Assembly (NCBI GenBank): GCA_018303025.1
Contig: JAGVYZ010000017.1
Span: 1-33,832, forward strand
Direction: 5' to 3'
DNA length: 33,832 bases
From: Candidatus Woesearchaeota archaeon
Lineage (GTDB): Archaea; Nanobdellota; Nanobdellia; SCGC-AAA011-G17; GW2011-AR20
The translations under genes and the position numbers were made by a program. Of this stretch, positions 4,276-18,445 are shown piece by piece. Numbering within the stretch: the stretch's first letter is position 1; the number at the start of each line of letters is the position of its first letter. The notes below the pieces were generated by a model that worked only from the letters and a program-made list of their open reading frames with translations, did not search any database and was not told the origin of the DNA.

Positions 4276-4584
4276 ATGCAAAAAGCAAGAATAAAATTAG
4301 CAAGTGCAGAAATAGACAAGATTAATCAAATCTGTGATTCTATCTTAGAAGTTTGTAAAAAAACAAAGACAAAGGTCTATGGTCCTATTCCTTTACCTAC
4401 TAAAAAAATGAAAATTACAACAAGAAAATCTCCTGATGGAGAAGGTAAAGCTTCTTTTGAAAGATACCAGATGAGAGTTCATAAAAGATTAATTGATTTA
4501 GGTGTAGACGAAAGAGCATTAAGATTAGTAATGAGAGTCCCTATCCCAGATGGTGTTAACATATCTATAGAGATTCTTGAATAA
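4276..4584 (+). CDS. rps10: Ribosomal protein uS10
   Basis: A 102-residue protein of normal length for archaeal S10, a 30S subunit protein. The N-terminal ARIKLAS, the loop KVYGPIPLPTKK, RKSPDGEGKASFERYQMRVH and the C-terminal RVPIPDGVNISIEI are all typical. The ATG lies one TATA spacing (27.5 nt) from the promoter, so the transcript is probably leaderless. EF-1A, S10 and tRNA-Ser are a known archaeal neighbourhood, and the tRNA follows here. The first head of the dispersed repeat begins 2 nt after the TAA stop. Confidence 0.96.
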   Translation: MQKARIKLASAEIDKINQICDSILEVCKKTKTKVYGPIPLPTKKMKITTRKSPDGEGKASFERYQMRVHKRLIDLGVDERALRLVMRVPIPDGVNISIEILE

Positions 4585-4585
4585 G

Positions 4586-4691
4586 CAGGTTCGTAAAAGG
4601 TCTTTCTTTGGCAGGTTCGTAATGTTTTTTTCTTAGTGCAGGTTCGTAATGTTTTTTTCTTAGTGCAGGTTCGTAAAGGGTGCAACCCTTA
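4586..4691 (+). repeat. Repeat array B: three head-only units then one complete hairpin copy
   Basis: Heads CAGGTTCGTAA begin at 4586, 4612, 4639 and 4666. Units 2 and 3 (4611-4637, 4638-4664) are identical 27-bp tandem copies with a seven-T tract. The last unit (4666-4691) is complete: stem AAGGGT, loop GCA, stem ACCCTT. A further degenerate head, CAGGTTT, lies at 4734. The array fills the spacer between uS10 and tRNA-Ser. Confidence 0.85.
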
Positions 4692-4820
4692 CTTCAATAG
4701 AAATTTTAGAATAAATTGGTTTTTTCTTTAGCACAGGTTTATTTTGCAAAAAGAAAAGTGTTTTAAAACAATAAATTCTTTTTTATTTACGCCGGGATCG
4801 CGTAATCTGGTATCGCACAG

Positions 4821-4871
4821 AGCTTTTCTTGTAAGAAAACCTCTAGGAAAAGAACACAAAAAAGCGTGTAA
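4821..4871 (+). other. tRNA intron 1 (51 nt, between positions 29 and 30)
   Basis: The bulge-helix-bulge core is exact. Exon bases GCAC (4815-4818) pair with intron bases GTGT (4866-4869). The 5' bulge is AGA (4819-4821) and the 3' bulge is AAG (4870-4872). An inner helix pairs GCTTTT (4822-4827) with AAAAGC (4860-4865). Cutting after the second base of each three-base bulge gives precisely the boundaries needed for a paired anticodon stem. No outer helix is visible, as is common for non-canonical positions. Confidence 0.88.
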
Positions 4872-4879
4872 GTCTGGAA

Positions 4880-4893
4880 ATATGCAACGGGAA
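4880..4893 (+). other. tRNA intron 2 (14 nt, canonical 37/38 position)
   Basis: Its removal is needed to bring ACCTG next to the anticodon loop. Runs of A on both sides leave the cut ambiguous by up to three bases. The 37/38 choice gives bulges AAA and AAA and a weak central helix CTGG/CGGG with one G-G mismatch. The outer helix is complete only after intron 1 is removed, which would order the two splicing events. Confidence 0.75.
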
Positions 4894-4941
4894 AACCTGG
4901 CCTTTCGGGGCTTCTGGGTTCAAATCCCAGTCTCGGCGTAC

Positions 4942-17295: not shown

Positions 17296-18445
17296 CTTTG
17301 AAAACTTCCTCTAATTTCATATGTTTTATAAAATTCTTAAACAATCTTTGTTCAAAATCGCTAGATTTTTCATCATCGCTTTTCTCATAATCTAATGCTT
17401 TTAATATCTCATCAAGGCCATCAGAATTTTCAAGTTTAGTAATAACCTCATCTTCTATCTCACTAATATTTTCTTTAACATCTTCATCAAAAATTTCAGC
17501 AGTTAATTTATTTGAATTAATCAAAACACAATAAGCATCTTTAAAATATTCATTTATTCTGTTAAAGTTTAAATCAGAAGGCTTCCCAATTTTCAATATC
17601 CCTTCAATCCTAATCATTAAAATTTTATCATTAAAATCATGAATAGTTTCAATAATCTCATTCTCAATTTCATTGGGTGTTTTTGAATTAGCATCAAAAA
17701 AGCATATTTTTACATTAACTAATTCAATCTCAATTTTCTCAAGATTTAATTTATCATCCACAATGTAAAAGCTTCCTTTTCCTAACTCTTCTAATTCCTT
17801 GAAATTATTAGGAAATAATGGGCCAGGATAAACTAATTTTCCTTTTCCAAAATCAATTTCTTTTACATAATGAACATGCCCGCCAGCATAATAATCAAAA
17901 GATTTAGGCAATGAATGTATACTCTGCCCTTCAACTTTTTCCATGTCTTTGGGTTTAATTTCATTTATAGTAGTATGAAACATAAAAATCTTGAATCCTT
18001 CTTCATCATCTAAATATCCTAAATCTTCATAAAATGATTTCTCTAGATTATTTCTTAACCCCAATAATCCAGTAATTTTAGTATTAGTTTTATCTATAGT
18101 AAACTTCAATTTTCCATCTTCAATTAAAAAAACATTTTTCAATAAGCCAGCTTTTTCCAGAACATCAAGCATTGTTTTCCCAGAAGGTGAAAAATCATGG
18201 CTTCCAGGCACAATATAAACTTCAATATCTCTTTCCTTTAATTTTCCTAAAATAGAAGCAACTTCAGAAATCAGCTCAATGCTAGGCACAGAAGTGTTAA
18301 ACAAATCACCTGAAATCAAAACAAAAGCAACATGTTTCTTAATGCAGATATTAACAGCCTCATTAAATGTCTTTATAGTTAATTCCTTTAGTTTAGGTTC
18401 TCTCCATCCACCTATATGACAATCAGCAATATGTCCAAATTTCAT
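17285..18445 (-). CDS. mre11: DNA double-strand break repair nuclease Mre11
   Basis: A calcineurin-like phosphoesterase with manganese-dependent nuclease activity. Counting from the ATG at 18445 (386 residues), metal-binding motifs are DCHIG (D8, H10), SGDLFN (D47), GSHDFS (H83, D84), FHTT (H157) and GGHVH (H190, H192). A C-terminal acidic region (about 330-386), where Rad50 would bind, completes it. An upstream in-frame TTG (18454) would add three residues. The ATG at 18445 is preferred because a TATA-like stretch (about 18465-18477) is centred 26 nt upstream, giving a leaderless start. First gene of the mre11-rad50 operon. Confidence 0.94.
   Translation of the reverse strand: MKFGHIADCHIGGWREPKLKELTIKTFNEAVNICIKKHVAFVLISGDLFNTSVPSIELISEVASILGKLKERDIEVYIVPGSHDFSPSGKTMLDVLEKAGLLKNVFLIEDGKLKFTIDKTNTKITGLLGLRNNLEKSFYEDLGYLDDEEGFKIFMFHTTINEIKPKDMEKVEGQSIHSLPKSFDYYAGGHVHYVKEIDFGKGKLVYPGPLFPNNFKELEELGKGSFYIVDDKLNLEKIEIELVNVKICFFDANSKTPNEIENEIIETIHDFNDKILMIRIEGILKIGKPSDLNFNRINEYFKDAYCVLINSNKLTAEIFDEDVKENISEIEDEVITKLENSDGLDEILKALDYEKSDDEKSSDFEQRLFKNFIKHMKLEEVFKDDY

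Follow-up and report, generated by a model that had tools for sequence, protein, structure and literature searches.

We asked how a serine tRNA gene whose anticodon lies on an 8-nt exon between two introns is built, in what order its introns might be removed, and where they came from. The gene occupies positions 4791-4938 on the plus strand of the window, by which we mean the whole 33,832-nt stretch of DNA that was analysed. It belongs to a MAG (G000) of 1.06 Mb in 55 contigs that is 87.5% complete; counts for this genome are based on searches and retrieved stretches. The genome is nearest to Woesearchaeota/Nanoarchaeota MAGs (a neighbouring CPSF-type protein reaches 69% identity), and the host is a tiny symbiont-type archaeon in an order of Woesearchaeota-type DPANN.

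The gene has five parts, all on the plus strand, and after splicing gives an 83-nt class II tRNA-Ser(GGA). Exon 1 (4791-4820) carries the acceptor 5' strand, the D arm and anticodon-stem nucleotides 27-29 (CAG), and matches intronless orthologues. Next come a 51-nt intron 1 at site 29/30 (4821-4871), placed by bulge-helix-bulge (BHB) analysis, folding and the occurrence of 29/30 introns in 24 parsed serine tRNA genes of the order; exon 2, GTCTGGAA (4872-4879), which comprises the 8 nucleotides 30-37 and, by the cloverleaf and the orthologues, the anticodon GGA at 4876-4878; and a 14-nt intron 2 at site 37/38 (4880-4893), placed by BHB analysis, folding and a pairing test. Exon 3 (4894-4938) supplies nucleotide 38, the anticodon-stem 3' strand, the variable arm, the T arm, the acceptor 3' strand and a discriminator G. 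Removal of both inserts restores a complete cloverleaf, as expected of archaeal BHB tRNA introns, and in folding the spliced 83-mer is a perfect class II tRNA with acceptor stem GCCGGGA/UCUCGGC, anticodon stem CAGGU/ACCUG, loop CUGGAAA and T arm CUGGG-UUCAAAU-CCCAG. Because of a run of A residues, intron 2 can be placed in four equivalent registers with an identical product; 37/38 is the canonical register, and we rejected the others because the central helices are worse in all of them. A one-intron reading was also rejected, since the 7-nt anticodon loop forms only once both inserts are gone. The earlier note, which had read a tRNA-Ser(GGA) with two introns, a middle exon of 8 nt holding the anticodon and a 14-nt intron in the anticodon loop, is borne out by the cloverleaf and, most strongly, by orthologues that lack introns or carry one or two of them.

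That note also warned that simple tRNA scans may miss or misread the gene, and two of them did miss it: ARAGORN (bacterial settings, no introns) and Rfam at the gathering score each found no tRNA in the window. We used the ribosomal protein S10 neighbourhood and a pattern for the 5' half of serine tRNAs as means of finding orthologues across the order. The S10 gene lies upstream of the tRNA (4276-4584, plus strand), and this gene order is repeated in several relatives. The stretch 4584-4690, also upstream of the tRNA, holds tandem CAGGTTCGTAA...TTTTTTTCTTAGTG units, and ACGAACCTG strings similar to these units occur elsewhere in the genome (L299, L304). Farther upstream, an ORF at 745-2028 encodes a probable surface protein with an extended (GY)n run and a transmembrane tail at its C-terminus. 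In the window genome the 5'-half pattern finds four Ser-type genes, which we read as one per anticodon: GGA (4791-4938), GCT, TGA and CGA. A second Ser(GGA) gene, which would have spoken against the earlier reading, was sought with this pattern in the MAG and was not found, and the gene is the only UCU/UCC-reading serine tRNA gene seen in the genome. It should be needed, since 15 ORFs of the window contain 108 TCT and 22 TCC codons (UCU/UCC, 130 of 386 serine codons).

The core of intron 1 is well formed. The central helix pairs GCAC (4815-4818, nucleotides 24-27) with GUGU (4866-4869) in 4 of 4 positions, one of them G.U; the bulges are 3 nt each (AG|A and AA|G); and the inner helix has 6 bp, between GCUUUU (4822-4827) and AAAAGC (4860-4865), so that two 3-nt bulges surround a 4-bp helix (3-4-3). 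When we shuffled intron 1 (100,000 mononucleotide and 20,000 dinucleotide-preserving shuffles), 4 of 4 central pairs arose in 0.3-0.4% of cases, and never together with an inner helix of at least 6 bp. We also looked for an outer helix adjoining the bulge and found 0 bp (C23xU31, U22xC32). This makes intron 1 a relaxed motif by the definition in the literature, as the strict hBHBh' form has outer and inner helices adjoining both bulges. The claim of an exact BHB at 29/30 thus holds for the site and the 3-4-3 core, and the word exact does not. The BHB of intron 2 is imperfect, with 3 of 4 pairs in the central helix CUGG/CGGG (a G-G mismatch) and, after removal of intron 1, the full anticodon stem as its outer helix. 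Judged by their sequences, both introns are relaxed rather than strict motifs.

Comparison across the order shows the same gene with different sets of introns. Three Ser(GGA) orthologues have none (G009/L124, G011/L139 and G017/L009) and align without gaps to the spliced window product outside the variable loop. Three others have only the 29/30 intron (L141, L159, L190) and four only the 37/38 intron (L002, L142, L145, L110). Among two-intron orthologues, the anticodon-stem intron lies at 29/30 in one (L151), at 27/28 in four (L006, L018, L136, L092) and at 30/31 in four (L003, L020, L128, L172). The central helix is specific to the site: GCAC/GUGU at 29/30, UCGC/GCGA at 27/28, and CACC/GGUG or CACA/UGUG at 30/31; in relatives, the type seen in intron 1 is GCAC/GUGU or GCGC/GYGY. 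The 29/30 central helix has 4 of 4 pairs in 22 of the 24 parsed serine genes, from three isoacceptors, in counts biased by a parser that demands paired stems and favours good BHBs; the intronless orthologues are an unbiased check. The three neighbouring sites suggest either sliding or repeated gain of the anticodon-stem intron.

On the order of splicing, the earlier note had argued that the outer helix of intron 2 forms only after intron 1 is removed; we count 2 bp before the exit of intron 1 and 5 bp after it, and these counts and the folding fit its suggestion that intron 1 would be spliced before intron 2. The BHB of intron 1 is absent from the unconstrained minimum-energy fold of the precursor, and nucleotides 24-27 are wanted by both the D stem and this BHB, so the D stem must open. 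Constraining the fold to contain the BHB costs 2.1 kcal/mol relative to the minimum if intron 2 is present, and 5.6 kcal/mol if it is not. Intron 2 lowers the predicted cost because its UAUGC (4881-4885) can pair with GCGUA (4800-4804), the D-stem 5' strand. In the same constrained fold, UCUGG of the D loop (4806-4810) pairs with CUGGA (4874-4878) as a substitute outer helix. Intron 2 may therefore help intron 1 to fold in the pre-tRNA.

Complementarity between the D strand and intron 2, with compensating changes, recurs in several GGA and GCT genes that have both introns (for example GCGUAA/UUACGC, GCAUAA/UUAUGC and GCACAA/UUGUGC). The combined shuffle p value for genes with both introns is about 3e-10; it ignores kinship and post-hoc noticing, and such p values overstate the case because the pairing was noticed before it was tested and the sequences are related. 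The same shuffle test found no such pairing in TGA genes, and the pairing is hence no general rule, being strong in GGA and GCT genes and absent in TGA. Taken over the order, intron 2 changes the cost of the intron 1 BHB little (median 0.7 versus 0.85 kcal/mol). Sequence, folding and comparison together point to a most likely course of three steps. (i) The 3' strand of the D stem (nucleotides 24-27) would pair with the end of intron 1 (GCAC/GUGU), while intron 2 would hold the 5' strand (GCGUA/UAUGC) and CUGG of the anticodon loop would hold CUGG of the D loop, giving the substitute outer helix. (ii) The splicing endonuclease, from a single alpha-type gene and presumably a homotetramer, would excise the 51-nt intron, and RtcB would ligate the exons. 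(iii) The D arm and the full 5-bp anticodon stem would then form, the intron 2 motif would arise, and the 14-nt intron would be excised.

Intron 1 also matches a dispersed palindromic element with the core GAAGCCTTTTnnnAAAAGCCTTCAGGGAAAA. A BLAST search of the genome with this repeat gave 30 hits, one of them a diverged copy within intron 1 (4823-4857, plus strand; E 9.4e-6, 86% over 35-37 nt). Intron 1 aligns with the repeat at a score of 50; the best of 5000 dinucleotide shuffles reached 32, and 22 other anticodon-stem introns from the order scored 8-28. With the window copy kept out of its training set, a covariance model predicts about 70-90 copies in the 1.06-Mb genome (71 at E<=0.001 and 87 at E<=0.01, the E values being rough); this model gives the window copy a low score (23.1 bits, genome-wide E 0.07) that is nonetheless the best in the window. 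Another match, in a window ORF (18172-18204), looks like chance and was rejected. Copies lie in spacers, in frame within protein genes and in introns of at least six other tRNAs, a dispersed palindromic distribution, partly in frame in genes, that is typical of MITEs and Rickettsia palindromic elements. In-frame copies were seen in DNA polymerase DP2 (L351, minus strand, with a local duplication) and close to the C-terminus of S19e (L296), both in the window genome, and in a B12/radical-SAM protein of G026 (L329, minus strand). Within the order its occurrence is patchy. A general form of the pattern has 19 copies in G000, 15 in G064, 14 in G026, 12 in G059 and 9 in G042, and zero in 87 of 103 genomes, among them all 12 same-family relatives; the reversed pattern, our control, matches 3 times in total. 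At 29/30, the same-family genomes G003 and G007 have short introns (20-21 nt) that differ in sequence from intron 1 (L151, L141); in the window gene, the repeat has therefore probably invaded an existing 29/30 intron or taken its place. The spread of copies hints at mobility.

The repeat also sits in other tRNA genes. Near-identical introns of 68-74 nt interrupt the T loop (59/60) of six tRNA genes of this genome (L121, L287, L288, L289, L290 and L291), which we read by eye as Ser(TGA), Leu(CAG), Glu(CTC), Val(GAC), Leu(TAG) and one more. The introns have a mean identity of 89% and the 45-nt upstream exons are 50% identical; such likeness of introns between otherwise unrelated tRNA genes within a genome is the mark of tRNA intron transposition. 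At least two further T-loop introns (L413) hold diverged repeat copies, behind a tRNA-like 5' part lies a seventh copy (L292), where the T arm is incomplete, and an eighth (L293) lies outside any tRNA. Across genomes, nucleotide 57 covaries with intron nucleotide -6 (A-T 23, G-C 6; exceptions A-G 5, A-C 2, A-A 1, G-A 1), with a Fisher p of 3.8e-5 in the table of A/G by T/C. We take the T-loop introns to be real BHB introns, and the near-identical ones look like newer copies of the family found in intron 1. Other genomes each have their own set of near-identical T-loop introns in different tRNAs (G028, e.g. L382; G026, L377 and L394; G079, L369; G057, L386), and the sequences differ from genome to genome, which suggests repeated spread within genomes. 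We note several further oddities among these genes. tRNA-Val(GAC) (L289, about 1348-1600) appears to have three introns, in the D loop with two tandem repeat copies, at 37/38 and at 59/60. The only tRNA-Ser(CGA) gene (L122, G000:C50:98711) lacks the T-stem 5' strand and the start of the T loop, which would be a deletion, an assembly error at the repeat or something stranger. At four same-family loci (L133, L135, L144, L147), Ser(GGA) or Ser(GCT) carries a T-loop intron unrelated in sequence, and the T-loop intron of Ser(GCT) in the window genome (L120) is similar to one in G042 (L182).

The genome has an RtcB gene and one EndA gene (176 aa, L058:1258-1788; PF02778 and PF01974), with both N- and C-terminal domains in a single gene and catalytic Y, H and K columns conserved in 35 homologues. 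Its closest solved chain is the Nanoarchaeum equitans alpha subunit (3iey_A, E 9.8e-38). A single strong PF01974 gene is present in 38 of 41 mostly near-complete relatives, and a search of these 41 for a beta subunit or second PF01974 gene at E<=10 gave three scattered weak hits, none consistent; an earlier genome set included one genome with two PF01974 genes and 6% contamination. Endonucleases of broad specificity have a CSL or ASL, a loop insertion of 11-18 residues with a lysine near the active site. In the EndA alignment the spacing around the loop site is as in M. jannaschii and a long insertion is absent, and a conserved Y-D-[KQ]-S-R-[FY]-G motif stands at about this site. According to reviews, efficient removal of relaxed motifs is confined to (alpha-beta)2 and epsilon2 enzymes, which achieve it via their CSL/ASL loops (PMC6379350, PMC12397907), and alpha4 enzymes are said to cleave such motifs inefficiently (PMC6379350). 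Either the alpha enzyme here would accept a wider range of substrates than supposed, or a diverged partner escaped our search.

A tRNA-Ser(GGA) gene with two introns of the BHB kind and the proposed ordered splicing is, with high confidence, the best explanation of the locus on sequence and folding. The gene might instead be a decayed pseudogene whose apparent introns are the product of a repeat insertion and drift, while another Ser(GGA) gene does the job, and a repeat copy does sit in intron 1; a second gene could also be missing, because the MAG is fragmented and incomplete. We consider this very improbable and rejected it on conservation, covariation and single copy: every exon stem and conserved base is intact by cloverleaf and orthologue alignment, the core of intron 1 is far above the chance level, the same intron sites come back in orthologues, the 5'-half pattern finds just four Ser-type genes with one per anticodon, and UCU is a frequent codon. 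If both introns are real, they might still leave in either order, or intron 2 first, with the pairing between D arm and intron 2 irrelevant. One-intron orthologues of both kinds (L141, L002) mean that each intron can be spliced alone, and some archaeal enzymes cleave relaxed motifs missing one outer helix (PMC6379350); free order is nevertheless unlikely, if a serious contender, as intron 2 has an outer helix of just 2 bp while intron 1 is in place and its prior exit raises the cost of the intron 1 BHB in the window gene.

The remaining doubts concern the origin of intron 1 and the enzyme. Similarly shaped A/T hairpins make up many of the order's introns, and hairpins bound to form an inner helix might resemble the repeat by convergence. 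This seems rather improbable given the length and identity of the match, its score against shuffles and other introns, and its inclusion of a non-structural string, GGAAAAGAACAC. Another doubtful alternative is that an (alpha-beta)2 enzyme with an unrecognised beta subunit cuts the relaxed introns, as in N. equitans, whose alpha subunit, the closest structure to EndA, works with a beta partner. The single PF01974 gene in most relatives and the lack of a consistent second match weigh against it. Moreover, even the alpha protein itself hits N. equitans beta at 2e-14, and our search should thus have picked up a beta of that kind; the nanoarchaeon Nst1 is likewise without a recognised beta (PMC3655853).

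Multi-intron archaeal tRNAs are already known, and the two-intron gene by itself adds one more member. Accounts of Thermoproteales genes (Sugahara 2007/2008; Tocchini-Valentini 2009; reviewed in PMC4090602 and PMC6379350) describe two or three introns per gene, and the archaeal sites named in these reviews include 29/30, 30/31 and 59/60. The window gene resembles them in having BHB-type introns at canonical and non-canonical sites, and its 8-nt middle exon results from the combination of 29/30 and 37/38. It differs in its mesophile-type DPANN host with a single alpha-type endonuclease, in an intron 1 that is a genome-wide dispersed repeat, and in an intron 2 predicted to aid the folding of intron 1. 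Similar introns in different tRNAs of one genome recall known tRNA intron transposition, whereas the family here also occupies spacers and lies in frame in protein genes. In this it resembles Rickettsia palindromic elements, described (Ogata 2000/2002; reviewed in PMC10969869) as dispersed, about 150 bp long and in some cases in frame in conserved protein genes; ours is likewise dispersed and palindromic with some in-frame copies, but archaeal, with a core of about 31-40 nt and many copies in tRNA introns. In Caldiarchaeum, tRNA-Thr gained an intron through a mobile element (PMC3293823). Both cases tie recent intron gain to mobile DNA, there in one gene by plasmid-like integration and here through a putatively mobile hairpin repeat in many tRNAs. 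What appears to be new is that the tRNA gene is tied to a palindromic repeat dispersed over the genome and to an apparently alpha-only enzyme.

We tentatively propose, with clearly less than even confidence, that a short, mobile palindromic repeat spreads through the genomes of some Woesearchaeota-type archaea in the form of tRNA introns that are spliceable and self-tolerated. These would be removed by a broad alpha-only endonuclease, creating or enlarging introns in the anticodon stem, anticodon loop and T loop, with sister copies in spacers and in frame in genes. The repeat copy in intron 1 hints at such a source of new tRNA introns. Reviews call for snapshots of archaeal tRNA intron insertion (PMC4033280), and this order gives them: one tRNA gene occurs with 0, 1 or 2 introns, its anticodon-stem intron occupies any of three neighbouring sites, and in one genome the introns of several tRNAs belong to a single repeat family. 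Genes of this kind escape the tRNA finders in common use, which makes both the tRNA counts and the completeness estimates of these genomes too low. A single alpha-type endonuclease seems to serve relaxed introns throughout the order, so enzyme specificity can be tested cleanly. If our proposal is true, new tRNA introns would have in the repeat a source that is direct and datable, and these archaea would be an exception to the rule that binds relaxed introns to beta-containing or epsilon enzymes.
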